A stretch of DNA of 64,000 nt from Polaribacter sp. BM10. GTDB taxonomy: Bacteria > Bacteroidota > Bacteroidia > Flavobacteriales > Flavobacteriaceae. The notes beneath the pieces are model-generated. The model searched no databases, was not told where the DNA came from, and was given only the letters and a program-made list of their open reading frames with translations. Made by a program: the position numbers and the translations under genes. Shown in pieces: positions 53,774-63,255 of this stretch (its first letter is position 1; every line of letters begins with the position of its first letter). The stretch covers positions 1,880,001 to 1,944,000 of the forward strand of contig NZ_CP019704.1 in assembly GCF_002005425.1 (NCBI RefSeq), given 5' to 3'.

Positions 53774-55036
53774 TTAAACTAAAAACTGAAACAAATCTGG
53801 TTTATCATTTAAGTAGTCTCCAAAAAAGCTTTTATCTTTCATTCTTTGAATTAAAGGTTCTAAATCTAAAGATGATTTCAGTTCTAAACCAACTACAGCG
53901 GCACCATTTTCTCTGTTTGTTTTTTTTGTATATTCAAAATGTGTAATATCATCATTAGGACCAAGAATTTCGGCAACAAACTCTTTTAACGCACCTGCTC
54001 TTTGCGGAAATTTCACAATAAAATAATGCTTTAATTTAGCATGTAACAATGCTCTTTCTTTTATTTCTGCTGTTCTTGTGATATCATTATTACTTCCACT
54101 AACTACACAAACAACATTTTTACCTTTAATTTCATCAGCATAAAAATCTAACGCAGCAATACTTAAAGCACCAGCAGGTTCTACAACAATAGCATCTTTA
54201 TTATACAAATCTAAAATTGTTTGACAAATTTTACCTTCTGGTACAGTAATCACTTTAGATAAATTTCTATTACAAATATCAAAGTTTAAATCTCCAACTT
54301 TTTTTACTGCAGCACCATCTACAAAAGCATCAATTTTATCTAAAAAAGTATTTTTATTATTTCTTATAGAAGTTAACATTGATGGCGCTCCTTCTGGCTC
54401 TACACCTATTATTTTAGTGTTTGGTGATAGATATTTAAATACGGATGACAATCCTGCAGACAAACCTCCACCACCAATAGGGACAAAAACATAATCTATT
54501 TTTTCTTTTGCTTGATTTAAAATTTCTAAACCAACTGTTGCCTGTCCCTCAATAACTTTTTGATCATTAAAAGGATGAATAAATGTTTTGTTTTTAGCAT
54601 CACATTCTAATTTTGCTGCATTAAAAGCATCATCAAAAGTATCACCTTCAATAACAATATCAATATAATCTTCGCCAAACATTTTAACCTGATTAATTTT
54701 TTGTTTTGGTGTTGGCGACGGCATAAAAATAGTACCTTTTACCTGTAATAATTTACAAGATAAGGCTACACCTTGCGCATGGTTACCAGCACTTGCACAT
54801 ACAATTCCGTTTTTTTTCTCTTTAATATCTAAAGAAGACATTTTGTTATAAGCACCTCTAATTTTATAAGAACGTACTACTTGTAAATCTTCTCTTTTAA
54901 ATAATATATTAGCATTTAACTCTTTAGAGAGATTGTGATTTTTACTTAAAGGAGTTTCAAAAGCAACACCTTGTAAATTACTTGCTGCTTTTTCTATATT
55001 CACTAAACTCGGATAATAAATATCTTTATGTTGCAT
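53774..55036 (-). CDS. ilvA: Threonine ammonia-lyase (threonine dehydratase)
   Basis: A 420-residue PLP enzyme that makes 2-oxobutanoate from threonine, the first committed step to isoleucine. PLP Lys58 is in VVRSYKIRGAYN; SAGNHAQGVA and PIGGGGLSAGL bind the cofactor. The C-terminal part (about 325-420) is a single ACT-like regulatory domain (HYFIVKFPQRAGALKEF), so feedback control by isoleucine is plausible. It is the last gene of the ilv operon, separated from ilvC by a strong hairpin. Confidence 0.95.
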   Translation of the reverse strand: MQHKDIYYPSLVNIEKAASNLQGVAFETPLSKNHNLSKELNANILFKREDLQVVRSYKIRGAYNKMSSLDIKEKKNGIVCASAGNHAQGVALSCKLLQVKGTIFMPSPTPKQKINQVKMFGEDYIDIVIEGDTFDDAFNAAKLECDAKNKTFIHPFNDQKVIEGQATVGLEILNQAKEKIDYVFVPIGGGGLSAGLSSVFKYLSPNTKIIGVEPEGAPSMLTSIRNNKNTFLDKIDAFVDGAAVKKVGDLNFDICNRNLSKVITVPEGKICQTILDLYNKDAIVVEPAGALSIAALDFYADEIKGKNVVCVVSGSNNDITRTAEIKERALLHAKLKHYFIVKFPQRAGALKEFVAEILGPNDDITHFEYTKKTNRENGAAVVGLELKSSLDLEPLIQRMKDKSFFGDYLNDKPDLFQFLV

Positions 55037-55110: not shown

Positions 55111-56586
55111 TTAGGCAGTTTTTACTACTTTCATTGCTGTCATAGAAGCTCTTAGTTGCTCTCCTACAATTTCTACAGGATGATTTCTAATAATCTTATT
55201 TATTTTAATAAGCTCTATATTATCTACACCATTTTCTGAACTAAAAGATTTACCAATAACGTTTGTTGAAACCTTTTTCATGAAATCTGTTAATAAAGGT
55301 TTACACGCATGATCAAACAAATAACATCCATATTCTGCGGTATCAGAAATTACACGATTCATTTCTGCCAATTTCATTCTTGCAATTGTATTTGCAATTA
55401 ATGGCGTTTCATGTAAAGACTCATAATATGCTGAAGCATCAATAATTCCTGACTCTGTCATCGCTTCAAAAGCTAATTCTACACCAGATCTTACAAAAGC
55501 AACTAATAACGTTCCGTGATCGAAATACTCTTGTTCTGAAATTTCATCAGAAGTAATTACTTGTTTTTCAAAAGCAGTTTCTCCTGTTGCAGCTCTCCAA
55601 GTTAAAAGATTCTTGTCATCATTTGCCCAATCTTCCATCATAGTTTTAGAAAAATGACCCGTCATAATATCATCCATGTGCTTTTGGAATAATGGACGCA
55701 TTATATCTTTCAATTCTTCAGAAAGTCTAAATGCTTCTACTTTTGCAGGATTAGACAATCTATCCATCATATTTGTAATTCCACCATGCTTTAAGGCCTC
55801 TGTTACAGTTTCCCAACCATACTGAATTAATTTACCTGCATAACCAGGTTCAATTCCTTCTGCCACCATTTTATCAAAAGATAAAATTGCTCCTGTTTGT
55901 AACAAACCACATAAAATAGTTTGTTCTCCCATTAAATCAGATTTTACTTCTGCAACAAAAGAAGACTCTAAAACACCTGCTTTATGACCACCTGTTGCAA
56001 CTGCATAGGCTTTTGCTTGTGCCCAACCTTTTCCCTCTGGATCATTCTCTGGATGCACTGCTATTAAGGTTGGCACTCCAAATCCTCTTTTATACTCTTC
56101 TCTAACTTCAGATCCTGGAGATTTTGGCGCCACCATAATTACTGTTAAATCTTCACGAACTTGCATCCCTTCTTCAACAATATTAAAACCGTGAGAATAC
56201 GATAAAGTTGCACCTTTTTTCATTAAAGGCATTACTGCATTTACAACATTTGTATGTTGTTTATCTGGTGTTAAATTAATTACCACATCTGCTGTTGGTA
56301 ACATTTCTTCATAACTACCAACTTCAAAATTATTTGAAGTTGCATTGATATAAGACTGTCTTTTTTGATCTATTGCAGCCTGTCTTAAAGTATAAGAAAT
56401 GTCTAAGCCAGATTCTCTCATATTTAAACCTTGATTTAAACCTTGTGCTCCACAACCTACAATAACAATTTTCTTCCCTTTCAACGCTTCTACTCCGTCT
56501 TCAAATTCAGAAGCTTCCATAAAACGGCATTTTCCTAATTGCTCTAATTTCTCTCTTAATGTTAATGTGTTAAAATAATTTGACAT
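55111..56586 (-). CDS. ilvC: Ketol-acid reductoisomerase, class II (long form)
   Basis: A 491-residue enzyme that isomerises and reduces acetolactate and acetohydroxybutyrate. The NADPH-binding [17 protein letters not shown], then [15 protein letters not shown], is the class II form as in E. coli; two knotted domains follow (metal-site [26 protein letters not shown] and [15 protein letters not shown]). Length equals the E. coli enzyme. It lies 10 bases after ilvN. Confidence 0.97.
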
Positions 56587-56596
56587 TTTTATTTAT

Positions 56597-57127
56597 TTAG
56601 TTGTTGTATGTTTCTAATAGTTCAGAAATTTTCATTTCTTCTTTGGTTACCGCAATTAAGCCAGATCTAGTGTATTGCATAATACCAAATTCACTTAACT
56701 GATTGTATAATGCTACTATTTCTTCTTTTTTACCTGATTTTTCTAGAATAAAAAAATCTTTGTTTACCGTTACAATTCTTGCATTACTTTCTTTTATAAT
56801 ATTCTGAATTTGACGCTCTTCAAAAAGAAGCTCAGACTTAATCTTAAACAACCCAGATATTTGATAAATAATATCGTCTAAGCTGTGATAGTATGCCTTA
56901 ATTACTTCTACTTGTTTTTCTATTTGACCTAGTATTTTCTTAATATTAATTTCATCCATATTTACAACGATTGTAAATTTAGATACACCTTCTATTTCTG
57001 ATGGAGAAGTATTTAAACTCTCTATATTAATATGTCTTCTTTGAAAAATTGCTGATATCCTATTTAACAAACCAATATTGTTTTCGGTGTAAATAGATAC
57101 TGTATATAATTGTTTTTCTGTACTCAT
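56597..57127 (-). CDS. ilvN: Acetolactate synthase small subunit
   Basis: A 176-residue regulatory subunit with an N-terminal ACT domain (about 6-80: YTVSIYTENNIGLLNRISAIFQRRHINIESL) and a C-terminal ACT-like half. It confers valine feedback control on the large subunit. It begins one base after the ilvB stop. Confidence 0.95.
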   Translation of the reverse strand: MSTEKQLYTVSIYTENNIGLLNRISAIFQRRHINIESLNTSPSEIEGVSKFTIVVNMDEINIKKILGQIEKQVEVIKAYYHSLDDIIYQISGLFKIKSELLFEERQIQNIIKESNARIVTVNKDFFILEKSGKKEEIVALYNQLSEFGIMQYTRSGLIAVTKEEMKISELLETYNN

Positions 57128-57128
57128 C

Positions 57129-58862
57129 TTATTCTAATCTTATATCCGAAACACTAGCTCCTGTTGGTATCATTGGAAACACATTATCTTCTTTCTCTAC
57201 ACATACCTCTAAAAAATAAGCTTCTTTACTCGCCATCATTTCTGCAACTGCATCTGCTAATTCTTCTCTTTTTGTTACTTTTTTAGCTTTAATGTAGTAC
57301 CCTTCTGCAATCGCTACAAAATTTGGATTCACCATTTCTGTAGAAGCATAACGTTTATCAAAAAAAAGCTGTTGCCATTGACGAACCATTCCTAAAAAAT
57401 CGTTGTTTAGAACAACTACTTTTACTGCTGCTTTTTGCTGAAAAATTGTACCTAATTCTTGAATTGTCATTTGGTAACCACCATCACCAGAAATAGAAAC
57501 AACCTCTCTCTCTGGAGCAGCCATTTTTGCACCTATTGCTGCTGGCAAACCAAAACCCATCGTTCCTAATCCGCCAGAAGTAATATTACTTTTGGTAACA
57601 TTAAAATCTGCATATCTACAAGCAATCATTTGATGTTGTCCAACATCAGAAACTATAGCTGCTTCACCTTTACTCTGAATATTGATTTCTTTTAAAACCT
57701 CGCCCATTGTAATACCTTCTTTCGTAGGATATAGGTCATTTTTTATTACTTTTTCATACTCAACTTCGTACAAATCTTTAAACTCTTGAAGCCAATCTGT
57801 ATGTTTTGCTTCATTTAACAATGGCAATAACAAGTCTAAACTAGCCTTTGCATCACCTAAAACTGCAACATCTGTTTTAACATTTTTATCTACCTCGGCA
57901 GGATCAATTTCAAAATGAATAACTTTGGCTTGTTTGGCGTATGTAGACAAGCTACCAGTAACACGATCATCAAAACGCATACCTATAGCTATTAACACAT
58001 CGCATTCGTTAGTTAATTTATTTGGCGCATAATTACCATGCATACCAACCATACCTACATTTAATGGATGTGAGGTTGGAATTGCAGAAGCCCCTAAAAT
58101 TGTCCAAGCAGCAGGTATATCTGCTTTTTCTATAACTGCCTTTAGTTGCGATTCAGCTTCACTTAAAACAACACCTTGCCCCCAAACAATTAATGGTTTT
58201 TTGGCATTATTAATAATTTCTGCTGCAGCTTTTAAAGAAGACGCATCTGTTTTAGGAATTGGATTATAACTTCTTACTTTCGTACATTTCTCATAGAAAA
58301 AATCAAGTTCATCCATTTGAGCATCCTTAGTAATGTCAATTAAAACAGGCCCTGGTCTTCCGCTTTTTGCTATATAAAAAGCTTTTGCAATTGCCGCAGG
58401 AATATCTGAAGCTTTTGTTACTTGACAATTCCATTTTGTTACCGGAGTGGAAATACCGACAATATCTGTTTCTTGAAAAGCGTCTGAACCTAATAAATGA
58501 GAAAAAACTTGCCCAGTTATACACACCATTGGTGTAGAATCTATTTGCGCATCTGCAATACCAGTAATTAAATTTGTTGCTCCTGGCCCAGAAGTAGCTA
58601 TTGCGACACCAACTTTTCCTGAAATTCTAGCATATCCTTGCGCCGAATGCGTTGCACCTTGTTCGTGACGAGTTAATACATGATGAATTTTATCTTGATA
58701 TTTATACAACTCATCATAAACCGGCATTATTGCACCACCAGGATATCCATAAATAATGTCTACCCCTTCCTCTATTAGAGATCTAACAATTGCCTCGCTA
58801 CCAGAAATTCTTTCTGTAGCTTTAGCCGTATTATTTTTATTTTTTATGGTTTTTGTTTCCAT
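57129..58862 (-). CDS. ilvB: Acetolactate synthase large subunit
   Basis: A 577-residue ThDP enzyme that condenses pyruvate with pyruvate or 2-oxobutanoate. It shows the cofactor Glu in VLTRHEQGATHSAQGYARISG, the FAD-binding middle domain (AIGMRFDDRVTGSLS) and the ThDP motif GDGGYQMTIQELGTIFQQ...LNN. The N-terminus is extended by about 18 residues. It is coupled to ilvN and lies 84 bases after ilvD. Confidence 0.97.
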   Translation of the reverse strand: METKTIKNKNNTAKATERISGSEAIVRSLIEEGVDIIYGYPGGAIMPVYDELYKYQDKIHHVLTRHEQGATHSAQGYARISGKVGVAIATSGPGATNLITGIADAQIDSTPMVCITGQVFSHLLGSDAFQETDIVGISTPVTKWNCQVTKASDIPAAIAKAFYIAKSGRPGPVLIDITKDAQMDELDFFYEKCTKVRSYNPIPKTDASSLKAAAEIINNAKKPLIVWGQGVVLSEAESQLKAVIEKADIPAAWTILGASAIPTSHPLNVGMVGMHGNYAPNKLTNECDVLIAIGMRFDDRVTGSLSTYAKQAKVIHFEIDPAEVDKNVKTDVAVLGDAKASLDLLLPLLNEAKHTDWLQEFKDLYEVEYEKVIKNDLYPTKEGITMGEVLKEINIQSKGEAAIVSDVGQHQMIACRYADFNVTKSNITSGGLGTMGFGLPAAIGAKMAAPEREVVSISGDGGYQMTIQELGTIFQQKAAVKVVVLNNDFLGMVRQWQQLFFDKRYASTEMVNPNFVAIAEGYYIKAKKVTKREELADAVAEMMASKEAYFLEVCVEKEDNVFPMIPTGASVSDIRLE

Positions 58863-58946: not shown

Positions 58947-60623
58947 CTACAAATCAGTAACACATCCTTTAGAAGCAGATGCCACCGTTTTTGCATATTT
59001 ATATAAAATTCCTTTTTTGTGTTTTAATGCTGGCGCAACCCAATTTGATTTTCTAGCTGCTAATTCTTCATCAGAAATTAAAACATTTATCGAATTGTCT
59101 TCTGCACTAATTCTAATTTTATCGCCTGTTTTCAGGAGTCCGATTGCTCCCCCAGATTGAGCTTCTGGTGTAATATGTCCGACCACAAAACCATGAGTTC
59201 CTCCAGAAAAACGTCCATCTGTAATTAAAGCTACAGATTTACCAAGACCAGCACCCATAATTAAAGAAGTTGGCTTTAACATTTCTGGCATTCCTGGTCC
59301 TCCTTTAGGTCCAACATACCTAATGACGACTACATCTCCTTTTTCAACTTCTCCGTTAGAAATTCCTGCATTTGCTGCCTGTTCACCATCATAAACCACT
59401 GCTTTTCCTTCAAACAGCAAACCTTCGTTACCAGAAATTTTTGCTACAGCACCTTCTGTTGCTAAGTTTCCGTATATAATTTGAATATTTCCAGAAGACT
59501 TTAAAGCCTTGTCTCTCGGAAAAATTACATCTTGATCTTCAAATTCCATTGCCTCTACATCTGCTAAATTTTCAGCCAAAGTTTTACCAGTTACTGTTAA
59601 ACAATCTCCATGTAAAAAACCTTCTTGCAATAAATATTTCATAATTGCAGGCGTACCTCCAACCCCATGAACATCTTCCATTAAGTACTTACCAGATGGT
59701 TTTAAATCTGCAATTAACGGAGTTCTATCACTAACTCTTTGAAAATCTTCTAAAGTAAAATCTATTTCTGCGGCATGCGCAATAGCTAAAAAGTGCAATA
59801 CTGCATTTGTAGAACCACCTAAAGCATTTACTAAAGCCACTGCGTTTTCTAATGACTTTTTAGTTATAATATCTAGAGGTTTTAAATCTAACTCTAAGAG
59901 GTTTTTAATTGCTCTTGCTGTTCTTTCTGCTTCTGATAATTTATTTGGATTTTCTGCAGGAATTGAAGAATTATAAGGCAAAGCAAAACCCATACACTCT
60001 ATAGCAGACGCCATTGTATTGGCCGTATACATTCCGCCACAAGCACCAGCTCCAGGAATTGCTCTTTTTATAATTTCTTTATATTCCTCTTCCTCTATTT
60101 CTCCAGCTACTTTTTGCCCTAAAGCCTCAAATGCAGAAACAATATTTAATTTTCTTCCTTTATAATTTCCTGATGCAATAGAACCACCATACATCATTAT
60201 TGCTGGTCTATTTAAACGCAACATAGCAATTATAGAACCTGGCATATTTTTATCGCAACCAACAATTGCAACAACAGCATCGTAACTTTGAGCATTCATT
60301 ACAGTCTCTATAGAATCTGCAATAATATCTCTAGACACTAAAGAATAGTTCATACCAGAAGTTCCCATAGAAATACCATCAGAAACACCAATGGTATTAA
60401 AACCTAACCCTACCATATCTGCAATATTACATTCAACTTTAACTTCGTCTTTTAAACGATTTAAATGCATATTACAAGGATTACCATCATAACCAGTACT
60501 TGCAATACCTACTTGGGCTTTGCTCATATCTTCATCTGTTAAGCCTACTGCATATAACATTGCTTGAGATGCTGGTTGAGATTCGTCTTGCGTTAACCTT
60601 TTGCTATGTTTATTTAATTCCAT
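58947..60623 (-). CDS. ilvD: Dihydroxy-acid dehydratase
   Basis: A 558-residue Fe-S enzyme for the third common step of valine and isoleucine synthesis. Cluster cysteines are visible in [22 protein letters not shown] and [12 protein letters not shown]; the C-terminal [19 protein letters not shown] is typical. It is the first structural gene after the leader, with 169 bases between the attenuator hairpin and its ATG. Confidence 0.97.
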
Positions 60624-60724
60624 TTATTGTTTTGTTCAATTTATTGACTAAATTACTATGTTTCTCTATTTACATTACATAAAATGCAATGATACCGTTT
60701 ACATTCAGGGATTATAATTAATAT

Positions 60725-60751
60725 TTAAAATACTGAAAACAAGTATTTTAA
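60725..60751. promoter_or_regulatory. Inverted repeat between the attenuator and ilvD
   Basis: TTAAAATACT and AGTATTTTAA are a perfect 10-bp dyad with a 7-base spacer. It may be a regulator site or an AT-rich hairpin in the ilv mRNA. Its minus-strand tail is not a T run, so it is not a terminator. Confidence 0.4.
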
Positions 60752-60792
60752 CTGTTTATTATTATGACATTCAACTTTTGAAAAAATCATAA

Positions 60793-60828
60793 AAAAACCT
60801 TCCATTTAAAGTGGAAGGTTTTTTATAA
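60793..60828 (-). terminator. Attenuator hairpin of the ilv operon
   Basis: AAAAAACCTTCCA and TGGAAGGTTTTTT form a strong stem with a short loop, and a T run follows on the minus strand. It lies 22 bases past the leader-peptide stop. GGAAG just after that stop (about 60843-60847) can pair with CTTCC in the 5' arm, giving a possible antiterminator. Confidence 0.8.
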
Positions 60829-60850
60829 AAATATAAATACAACTTCCTCA

Positions 60851-60913
60851 TCAAACCGTAATAATTACGATGACGCTTGTAATTGAAATAATATTTAAAA
60901 ATGATTTCATCAT
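60851..60913 (-). CDS. Putative ilv leader peptide (20 aa, Ile/Val-rich)
   Basis: The frame MMKSFLNIISITSVIVIITV starts with a double ATG 27 bases after the leuB stop. Six Ile, three Val and one Leu make up half of the peptide, with a run IleValIleIle near the end (residues 15-18: VAL at 16). The RNA over codons 11-19 has two overlapping stems, AATTAC/GTAATT and CGTAA/TTACG, which cannot form together. The stop is followed by the attenuator hairpin. The arrangement matches leader-peptide attenuation as known for the enterobacterial ilv operons; the sequence itself is unrelated. Confidence 0.7.
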   Translation of the reverse strand: MMKSFLNIISITSVIVIITV

Positions 60914-60939
60914 ATATTTTTTTATCAGAATTCTAGGGA

Positions 60940-62061
60940 TTAAATAATAGTACTTTGCCCCATGTGAATATTCTTAAAATTAAGGTTACTATCTTCTTGA
61001 TTAGAAATGTAATCTGCTATAAAATCTCCTACTTTAGATGTTGATGCTGGATATTTATTTTTACCTTTAATATCCTCTGTAGTAATACCTAATAATAACG
61101 ATTTTTCTACAGCTCTTTCGATTGCATCTGCTTCTTCATGCAAACCTAAATGCTCTAACATCATAGCTGCAGATAAAATTGACGCTAAGGGGTTTGCTAT
61201 ATCTTTTCCTTTTGCTTGTGGAAAAGATCCGTGAATTGGCTCGAATAAAGCGTTTCTTTTTCCTAAGGATGATGACGCTAATAAGCCGATAGAACCACCA
61301 ATTACACTTGCTTCATCAGAAATAATATCGCCAAATAAATTTTCTGTAAGAATTACATCAAATTGTTTAGGGTTTAAAATTAACTGCATTGCAGCATTGT
61401 CTACAAACAAAAACTCTAACTTAACGTCTTTATATTGTTTTGCAATTTCGGTAACTGTTTTTCTCCATAAACGAGAAGTTTCTAAAACGTTTGCTTTATC
61501 TACCAAAGTCACTTTTTTTCTTCTAGTTTGCGCAGCTTTAAAAGCTAAATGAGAAATTCTAGAAATTTCTTCAACATCATAAGAACAACCATCGAAAGCA
61601 GATTTACCATCTTCGCTTACTTCTTTTTTTCCGAAGTAAATTCCGCCCGTTAATTCTCTAAAAATTGCAATATCTGTACCTTTTATAATTTCTCTTTTTA
61701 AAGGAGAGTTTTTAATTAAACTATCATAAGCCTTTACAGGTCTAACATTACAAAACAAACCTAATGTTTGTCTTAACTTTAATAAACCTTGTTCTGGTCT
61801 TACTTTTGCAGATGGATCGTTATCATACTTTGGATCGCCAATAGCGCCAAACAAAATTGCATCTGCGTTTTTACATGTTTTTATAGTTTCATCTGGCAAA
61901 GGATTACCTGTTGCATCAATAGCACATGCGCCCATTTGCGCTTCTTCGTACAAAAATATATGATCATACACTTCTGCAATAGCATCTAATGCTTTTTTTG
62001 CTTGATTGGTAACCTCTGGACCAATACCATCTCCCGGAATTACTGCTATTGTATATTTCAT
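60940..62061 (-). CDS. leuB: 3-isopropylmalate dehydrogenase
   Basis: A 373-residue NAD-dependent decarboxylating dehydrogenase of leucine synthesis. Seen: IAVIPGDGIGPEV, the substrate-binding RPEQGLLKLRQTLGLFCNVRP, FRELTGGIYFG, DKANVLETSRLWR, TENLFGDIISDEAS and EPIHGSFPQAKGKDIANPLASI. The C-terminal tail of about 20 residues (NLNFKNIHMGQSTII) exceeds most homologues. It is 18 bases after leuA. Confidence 0.96.
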   Translation of the reverse strand: MKYTIAVIPGDGIGPEVTNQAKKALDAIAEVYDHIFLYEEAQMGACAIDATGNPLPDETIKTCKNADAILFGAIGDPKYDNDPSAKVRPEQGLLKLRQTLGLFCNVRPVKAYDSLIKNSPLKREIIKGTDIAIFRELTGGIYFGKKEVSEDGKSAFDGCSYDVEEISRISHLAFKAAQTRRKKVTLVDKANVLETSRLWRKTVTEIAKQYKDVKLEFLFVDNAAMQLILNPKQFDVILTENLFGDIISDEASVIGGSIGLLASSSLGKRNALFEPIHGSFPQAKGKDIANPLASILSAAMMLEHLGLHEEADAIERAVEKSLLLGITTEDIKGKNKYPASTSKVGDFIADYISNQEDSNLNFKNIHMGQSTII

Positions 62062-62079: not shown

Positions 62080-63255
62080 TTATGCCATTGCTATTTTAGA
62101 AGTCTTATTTACTTCTTTCATTATATTATGAATGTCTTGATCTTTTACTTCTTTTTGCTTGTCTGCTGTTTCAAGAAAAGAGCTATACGCTTGATCTAGT
62201 TGAACTTTCGTTAATTCGTAACCAATCTTTTTTGCTCTATAAGCCAATGCTGCTCTACCGCTTCTTGCTGTTAAAACAATTGCACTTTCTGTTACACCTA
62301 CATCTTCAGGATCCATAATTTCATAGGTCTCTCTGTTTTTAATTACACCATCTTGATGTATCCCAGAACTATGTGCAAATGCATTTGCACCCACTATTGC
62401 TTTGTTTGGTTGTACAGGCATACCCATACTTTCTCTTACCATTATAGATGTATCGTATAATAATTTAGAGTTAACAGTTGTTTCTAAATTTAGGTAAGGA
62501 TGTTGTTTTAAAACCATAACAACTTCTTCTAAAGCTGTATTTCCTGCTCTTTCTCCAATACCATTAATTGTACATTCTATTTGTCTTGCTCCGTTTATAA
62601 CACCAGCAATAGAGTTTGCAGTAGCCATACCTAAATCGTTATGACAATGACAAGATAAAATTACATTTTCTATACCTTTTACATTTTCTCTTAAATACTT
62701 AATTTTTGCACCATATTCTTCTGGTAAACAATACCCTGTAGTATCTGGAATATTTAACACTGTTGCACCTGCTTTAATTACCGCTTCGCAAACCCTTGCC
62801 AAATACTCATTATCTGTTCTACCTGCATCTTCTGCGTAAAACTCTACATCATTTACAAAAGACTTAGAATAAGAAACGGCTTTTACAGCTCTTTCTATAA
62901 CTTGTTCTCTTGTAGAATTAAACTTAAATTTTATATGAGAATCACTTGTACCAATACCTGTATGAATTCTTGGAAATTTTGCATTTTTTAACGCCTCTGC
63001 TGCAACTTTAATATCATTTTCTACAGCTCTTGTTAAACCGCAAACTGTTGCATTTTTTACAATTTTTGCAATTTCAGAAACCGAATTAAAATCTCCAGGA
63101 CTAGAAACAGGAAAACCAGCTTCTATTACATTTACGCCCAATAAATCTAATCTCTCTGCAATTACTAGTTTTTGATTAGTGTCTAATTTACACCCAGGAA
63201 CCTGCTCTCCATCTCTAAGGGTTGTATCGAAAATTTGTACTTGATTGTCTTGCAT
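62080..63255 (-). CDS. leuA: 2-isopropylmalate synthase, short form without regulatory domain
   Basis: A 391-residue HMGL-type synthase that condenses 2-ketoisovalerate and acetyl-CoA. Catalytic barrel motifs: [44 protein letters not shown] and [17 protein letters not shown], with [13 protein letters not shown] in the linker. The protein ends about 110 residues before the usual length of about 500, so the C-terminal leucine-binding domain is missing, and leucine feedback inhibition is not expected. The alternative that it is a related synthase (homocitrate or citramalate type) is less likely next to leuB. Confidence 0.92.

Follow-up and report, generated by a model that had tools for sequence, protein, structure and literature searches.

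The window, that is, the whole stretch of 64,000 nucleotides that was analysed, carries a cluster of seven leu and ilv genes in the order leuA, leuB, ilvD, ilvB, ilvN, ilvC and ilvA, each of which has at least one NCBIfam enzyme model above cut-off (Table 1). A short ORF and a terminator hairpin lie between leuB and ilvD, in front of ilvDBNCA, the genes for Ile and Val. A phage match was sought for the region, and none was found.

Table 1. Genes and RNA elements of the leu-ilv cluster, in the order in which they are read (positions are those of the window).
Feature	Position	Strand	Basis
leuA, 2-isopropylmalate synthase	62080..63255	-	NF002086 above cut-off
leuB, 3-isopropylmalate dehydrogenase	60940..62061 (stop 60942-60940)	-	TIGR00169 above cut-off
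Leader ORF, 20 codons and TGA, MMKSFLNIISITSVIVIITV	60851..60913	-	Found in same-genus gaps and in other genera
Segment 1, codons 6-10 (TAAATATTATTTC), partner of segment 2 in the 1:2 stem	60885..60897	-	Minimum-energy folds, window copy and relatives
Inner hairpin over the late codons (GTCATCGTAATTATTACGGTTTGATG region), part of the 1:2 structure	60849..60875	-	Folds
Segment 2, GGAAGTTGTATTTA, 3 bases past the leader stop; pairs with segment 1, or with segment 3 through GGAAG	60834..60847	-	
Segment 3, 5' arm of the terminator (AAAAAACCTTCCA); its CTTCC pairs with GGAAG of segment 2 (antiterminator)	60812..60824	-	
Segment 4, 3' arm of the terminator and T-run	60791..60804	-	Terminator search; kept in alignments
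Conserved element between terminator and ilvD (TTGAATGTCA at its start; TTGAATGTCATAAT...)	60640..60774	-	Motif in 51/57 post-terminator regions
ilvD, dihydroxy-acid dehydratase, first gene past the putative attenuator	58947..60623	-	TIGR00110 above cut-off
ilvB, acetolactate synthase large subunit	57129..58862	-	TIGR00118 above cut-off
ilvN, acetolactate synthase small subunit	56597..57127	-	TIGR00119 above cut-off
ilvC, ketol-acid reductoisomerase	55111..56586	-	NF003557 above cut-off
ilvA, threonine ammonia-lyase	53774..55036	-	NF006390 above cut-off

An earlier reading made from the sequence only had described a 20-codon ORF directly after leuB, half of its residues being Ile, Val or Leu, and the count agrees. 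The leader DNA (ATGATGAAATCATTT...ACGGTTTGA) starts 26 nt past the leuB stop and encodes 6 Ile, 3 Val and 1 Leu (10/20 codons); 9 of the 20 codons are thus for Ile or Val, the amino acids made by the genes downstream. Rare codons are used in it, namely GTC (6 of 214 Val codons), ATC (7 of 244 Ile codons) and ACG (15 of 158 Thr codons, all as counted in the seven flanking genes). Such an ORF is unremarkable in AT-rich DNA, and it is conservation that decides. If it is defined as an ATG ORF of 14-30 codons with at least 50% Ile, Val or Leu, dinucleotide shuffling of the 316-nt gap produces one in 156 of 5000 trials, and among all 330 short ATG ORFs of the window 25 are equally rich. An ORF of this kind together with a terminator within 75 nt occurs in none of the 5000 gap shuffles.

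The strong hairpin described after the ORF is found as a 13-pair stem with a T-run at 60824-60791 (-), the stem being drawn at 60824-60792, and the terminator search over a 701-base region gives one terminator, where shuffles of that region lead one to expect 0.1. As drawn, the stem of this intrinsic terminator begins 26 nt past the leader stop, and the distance of 22 bases given earlier has to be corrected. The sequence past the stop reads TGAGGAAGTTG..., with GGAAG at 60847-60843 (-), 3 bases after the stop. An Rfam search of the window gave 0 matches above gathering score. The best-scoring match of the region, Thr_leader (RF00506), was rejected at 29.5 bits against a gathering score of 55, and the T-box riboswitch was absent from the 20 Rfam matches at E up to 10 for the leader region.

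Conservation within the genus has been examined in 97 genomes, the window's included, 90 of which have an ilvD match. The upstream DNA of 89 ilvD loci was compared, with G070 and G083 left out as their ilvD start is missing. In 52 of the 89 loci leuB lies directly upstream, and 39 of these 52 gaps contain a leader, defined as an ORF of 14-26 codons with at least 7 Ile, Val or Leu after 16 chance ORFs had been dropped by eye. The typical leader of the genus is MKKQILNIISIIIVIVIITT, with a GTG start in three, and both its peptide core GTCATCGTAATTATTACGACATGATAAGGAAGTG and the terminator are strongly conserved. The comparison of related leuB-ilvD gaps, which the sequence-only reading had proposed as a check, therefore turned out in its favour, since the ORF, the hairpin and the exclusive pairings are kept across the genus and in further genera of its family. 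The outcome it had named as contrary, gaps lacking the ORF or the hairpin, is also seen, in 13 of the 52; in two of these (L027, L063) a degenerate leader can be made out by eye, and several (L025, L037, L039) retain the terminator alone, from which it follows that the hairpin is able to act simply as a terminator of leuAB. The same criterion finds a leader in 11 of the 37 loci without adjoining leuB. A second ilvD type (about 67-70% identical) accounts for 23 of those 37 loci and has a leader in only 3. A repeated intergenic segment, GCTATTTCCAGCTTTC...GAGCTCAAACA...CAATCTGGGCTA, has been observed between leuB and ilvD in L007, L015, L019, L025 and L047.

A first MAFFT alignment of 45 of the 49 first-type leaders (L052, L064, L074 and L081 left out) gave only three pairs in RNAalifold, as the terminator arms were misaligned. 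A covariance model, R1, was therefore built from 16 rows of similar spacing, all from relatives and without the window. In the window's own genome R1 scores the site at 89.6 bits (E 6e-14), and the next match has E 0.008. Six of the 30 own-genome matches at E up to 10 were inspected besides the site; five were rejected as terminator-like hairpins without a matching leader, and the sixth (E 0.008) is an Asn-rich leader described below.

Over 299 genomes of the family, 127 have an R1 match at E <= 0.01, many of the weak ones being much shorter than the model. Leaving the window aside, ilvD follows within 1.5 kb at 28 of the best 29 matches, and the remaining one (L115) lies at a contig end. A further 40 matches, taken from the next 42 with G273 and G330 omitted, precede ilvD in 29 cases and an ilvE-type aminotransferase in 5 (assigned by eye, with Pfam on one); 4 are the Asn leader itself, and 2 are neither. 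Two R1 matches were rejected as ilvD leaders, L203 having no leader and L197 having a leader with no ilvD within the fetched stretch. At the level of the order, matches at E 1e-4 occur in 5 of 246 genomes, of which one is outside the family; this sole match in another family (L128) has no Ile/Val leader and was rejected. At the level of the phylum there are matches in 4 of 345 genomes, all within the family.

Because R1 is rich in sequence, diverged leaders are missed; G410, for example, has a leader before ilvD (L136) yet no R1 match. A model-free look at 23 further ilvD loci of the class found a diverged leader, MMQISIIITSVIVVNV..., in both of the two family loci. It found no clear leader in the 21 loci from other families; a weakly ILV-rich ORF is present in two of them. 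Diverged leaders like MMQISIIITSVIVVNV... have been observed in another genus of the family (L129, L130, L133, L136 and L213), where the frame runs through a GGAATGG segment before the stop.

Three alternative pairings are present in the leader RNA: 1:2, 2:3 and the terminator. The 1:2 stem is formed by codons 6-10 (LNIIS) and the post-stop segment (GGAAGTGATATTTA in many relatives) and encloses the hairpin over the late codons. Minimum-energy folds thus give substance to the mutually exclusive stems that had been noticed over the late codons, the structure being larger than described. The 2:3 pairing is made by GGAAG and CTTCC and excludes the 1:2 stem on one side and the terminator on the other. 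These pairings were tested on the 73 loci that remain of 76 model matches after removal of an antisense duplicate and of two in which no terminator was recognised. The 2:3 pairing has a mean of -8.8 kcal/mol against -4.5 kcal/mol for shuffled arms and is stronger than the shuffled arm in 71 of the 73 loci, in line with the proposed pairing of the post-stop GGAAG with the terminator arm; own partners beat swapped partners in only 46 of the 73. A simpler count of 2:3 pairing by minimum-energy fold (72/73 against 0.65 expected) separates weakly from shuffles and, as pairing is also frequent in shuffled segments, was demoted from the main evidence.

At equilibrium the terminator is the more stable structure, with a mean of -13.9 kcal/mol against -8.6 kcal/mol for the antiterminator over the 73 loci, and -13.6 against -7.6 kcal/mol in the window. 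When a ribosome is masked at the stall positions in the window, the equilibrium fold keeps the terminator every time. Since the terminator is stabler than the antiterminator at equilibrium, the switch must be kinetic.

The choice of codons within the leader has been tested by randomising synonymous codons with the peptide held constant. Over 55 leaders (49 first-type and 6 second-type) codon choice favours the 1:2 stem with a mean z of -2.0, and z is below -1.5 in 37 of the 55; the window leader is neutral (z -0.1). This result bears on a reading in which the ORF is there for its product, a small hydrophobic peptide with a function in the membrane, and the hairpin is a coincidence. The peptide is indeed hydrophobic with a conserved core, and codon position 2 changes least in the leader. 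On the other hand, codon choice serves the RNA stem, the post-stop and terminator sequences match each other, the last residues of the peptide vary between genera where the Ile/Val run stays, and the same design recurs with His, Trp and Asn runs (see below). A membrane peptide is therefore considered very improbable.

The promoter that serves the leader has been analysed separately. In other genera, 24 of 28 loci have a box of the type TAAATATTTG 7-11 nt upstream of the leader ATG, the other four being unclear or badly anchored, and the consensus has TTGG or TAGG about 19-20 nt upstream of the box. A promoter model trained on these 28 loci, including the four poorly anchored ones, represents one promoter class. 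Within the genus, 30 of the 39 leaders have such a Bacteroidota-type promoter, with the box 4-9 nt before the leader; it is found at all 30 leaders that lie at least 45 nt from leuB and is absent at all 9 that lie within 4-40 nt. The scan first covered 5-16 nt and then 3-16 nt before the start codon, a range changed after seeing the data because six leaders at least 45 nt from leuB scored low, their box being 4 nt away. Scores are 5.5-17.8 for the 30 promoter-bearing relatives, -0.5 at the window leader and at most 1.3 among the other 8 promoterless loci; the cut-off of 5 was set after the scores had been seen, between the lowest accepted (5.5) and the highest rejected (1.3). The sequence-only reading had seen no consensus promoter before the leader, and the model trained on other genera finds none there either. 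As a promoter needs about 50 nt, its pattern with distance is partly a matter of geometry.

Transcription beginning directly ahead of the leader is usual for attenuators of this type, though not essential to them. The attenuator of most relatives sits behind its own promoter, and its internal position in the window is thus derived. In a LeuB tree of 50 proteins (50 of the 52 leuB loci and 8 of the 9 promoterless ones, L059 being missing), the 8 promoterless rows need 7 changes and are as scattered as shuffled labels; the promoterless state thus arose or was lost repeatedly. In the promoterless lineages the leader must, as judged from these sequences, be read from leuAB or from another start inside leuB. 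The earlier proposal that the leader may control read-through from leuAB is accordingly supported for this lineage, the promoter being missing in the 9 close loci and present in the 30 others. We give even odds to a history in which an attenuator once placed behind its own promoter became an operon-internal valve here, and independently in several relatives, so that leuAB would always be made and the Ile/Val-sensing leader would gate ilvDBNCA.

Alternatively, the leader of the window may be transcribed from a promoter of its own that lies within leuB or the 26-nt gap and belongs to a type unseen by the model, with attenuation following its own initiation as in the relatives. This would fit the 30 of 39 same-genus leaders with a promoter and the restriction of the model to one promoter class, and the best match in the 500 nt upstream of the window leader scores 6.7, 417 nt before it. 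However, neither the window nor any of the 8 other promoterless loci has a match close to the leader, and the nine leaders at most 40 nt from leuB leave no room for the ancestral promoter outside leuB. We regard a hidden promoter as unlikely, though it deserves serious attention.

In Flavobacterium johnsoniae, the last G of the promoter box lies at -5 in the portions of the study consulted (PMC6847099). Transferred to the present loci, this spacing predicts 5' leaders of ~3-7 nt in other genera and 0-5 nt in the 30 genus loci, and the leader transcript of most relatives is thus predicted to be nearly leaderless. This would be unusual, because 87% of the predicted transcripts of F. johnsoniae have leaders >10 nt according to the same portions (PMC6847099).

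A second conserved stretch with the consensus TTGAACATCATAA follows the terminator, mostly starting 15-20 nt past it, in 51 of 57 loci against 0.12 in shuffles. It is common to other genera, and no consensus RNA fold was found in it. A 10-bp dyad past the window terminator, considered as a binding site, was rejected since it is not conserved and exceeds shuffles in only 23 of 53 loci. Of 59 post-terminator regions, 11 have a promoter-model match of at least 12, a score reached by no shuffle, and the best match past the window terminator reaches 8.3. The element is possibly a promoter that bypasses the attenuator and supplies ilvD.

These observations lend themselves to a further reading, in which the hairpin is now mainly the leuAB terminator, the leader is a relic, and ilvD has its promoter in the conserved element; the relatives that keep a terminator without a leader would agree with it, as would the conservation of the element and its strong promoter matches. 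The window leader, post-stop segment and terminator are, however, more conserved than third codon positions: against the nearest relative, 57 of 63 bases are identical in the leader and 66 of 68 from the stop to the terminator, compared with 81% of third positions in leuB and 73% in ilvD. The R1 score of the window is also high, 48 of the 59 post-terminator regions have no match of at least 12, and 24 of the 28 loci from other genera have the attenuator placed after a clear promoter box and before ilvD. A relic leader is for these reasons judged improbable.

Based on the layout, its conservation and the pairing tests, we propose with a probability of roughly 0.9 that the element is a ribosome-mediated transcription attenuator of ilvDBNCA that responds to charged isoleucyl- and valyl-tRNA. 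The earlier claim of attenuation by branched-chain aminoacyl-tRNA levels is thereby supported as to the mechanism, the conserved layout lying before ilvD in 28 of the 29 best matches, and is narrowed as to the signal, the codons being those of Ile and Val rather than Leu. We infer translation of the leader, stalling, a response to amino acids, termination in the cell and read-through from leuAB. With ample Ile and Val, the ribosome would reach the leader stop and cover the GGAAG segment (or leave, in which case the 1:2 stem would re-form), and in both cases the terminator would form and transcription would end before ilvD. Under a shortage of Ile- or Val-tRNA, the ribosome would stall on the Ile/Val run and the 1:2 stem would be broken. 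GGAAG could then pair with the emerging CTTCC before the second terminator arm is made, and the polymerase would read on into ilvD. This polymerase probably comes from the leuA promoter in the window, since none was found that belongs to the leader, and the attenuator would set the expression of ilvDBNCA relative to that of leuAB.

Two or more attenuators occur in series at 17 of 114 leader loci, a count that gives no family frequency because the loci were mostly chosen for matching the first-type leader; four loci scored as having none do have leaders by eye. In the serial pairs GGAAG/CTTCC is mostly the pairing of the first attenuator and GATACAG/CTGTATC mostly that of the second; in 14 of the 17 loci each of the two own pairings is stronger than either cross pairing. 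The serial Ile/Val loci include L057, L058, L061, L062, L081, L104, L108 and L110, as well as L112, L116, L117, L180, L181, L195, L196 and L211, and the second leader often ends in SSPPS or NST. At L183, three leaders precede an Aminotran_4 (ilvE-type) gene, starting at 0, +146 and +280 of the model match, and the second and third are near-copies.

Leaders for other amino acids are also present in the window's own genome. A leader with four His codons, MNFIQSHHHHFYNCNQAI, followed by a terminator as judged by eye, lies upstream of hisG (PF01634; L168), and one with three Trp codons, MKNNTNNTWWWNSLI, likewise followed by a terminator by eye, lies upstream of a gene of the chorismate-binding family (PF00425; L172), by inference trpE-type. 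With His and Trp leaders in the genome, leader-peptide attenuation looks like a general device here. No leader was seen upstream of the homoserine dehydrogenase genes of this genome, whose starts were not cleanly reached.

An Asn-rich leader of the same design, MIINNSNRNFNNPNL, is located at G000:C1:1504928-1505037 (-) of the own genome (L222 / L092). The leader, present at L214-L227 and reading, e.g., MKNNNNNNNFNNPNF in other genomes, has a post-stop GGAAGG and a CCTTCC terminator. Of 149 family genomes, 14 have it ahead of a GatC-like ORF; the window's genome is one of them, and four of the 14 had also been in the 5-row Asn model. A GatA-type ORF follows, by eye, in the 13 loci long enough to show it. 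The GatC match scores 23.6 against a cut-off of 23 in Pfam and 23.9 against 47.1 in NCBIfam, and the gatA match, made with a truncated ORF, reaches 384 bits where the cut-off is 481. The Asn leader is a candidate attenuator, perhaps sensing Asn-tRNA and controlling a tRNA amidotransferase.

Ribosome-mediated attenuation needs a ribosome close behind the polymerase. To our knowledge, the coupling of transcription and translation in Bacteroidota is not settled. Given this requirement, the widespread attenuators for branched-chain amino acids, and those for His, Trp and perhaps Asn in this genome, would make the coupling question directly testable. The bacteria concerned lack Shine-Dalgarno sequences, as stated in the consulted portions of one study (PMC6847099). 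The repeated loss of promoters and the serial copies with different pairing codes may serve as natural experiments on how attenuators move and multiply. If the proposal is true, one regulatory RNA has been rewired repeatedly from the head of an operon to its divider, and elsewhere has been duplicated with separate pairing codes.

The ilvGMEDA and ilvBN operons of E. coli are controlled by leader-peptide attenuators. Like these, the present system has a short ORF with an Ile/Val run, three alternative pairings and a terminator before genes for branched-chain amino acids. The likeness noted here is one of layout, and the leader transcripts of most relatives are predicted to be nearly leaderless. 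In addition, the unit of the window is internal to a leu-ilv cluster, and some relatives have two attenuators in series. Vitreschak and colleagues reportedly carried out earlier comparative work on attenuators. Leader-peptide attenuation and tandem attenuators are known as such. Among the matches listed in the open-access literature, none was found that reports the ilvD leader or describes its internal position or serial form, and none that reports the Asn leader; these four appear to be new.

Clues for leader-peptide attenuation upstream of amino-acid operons have been described in Flavobacterium psychrophilum, a member of the related bacteria, in passages that give no analysis of an ilvD leader, its pairing, promoter, tandem arrangement or internal position (PMC9723704). 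Leader-peptide control of branched-chain amino acid genes is also described, in the excerpts consulted, for ilvBNC of Corynebacterium (PMC11857589, PMC10272879), from which the present system differs in phylum and in the first gene controlled. Tandem attenuators with two short ORFs in one leader are described in the consulted part of a study on Salmonella mgtCBR (PMC3641672); in the serial loci described here, by comparison, both leaders are Ile/Val-rich and the pairing sequences mostly differ (GGAAG/CTTCC and GATACAG/CTGTATC).
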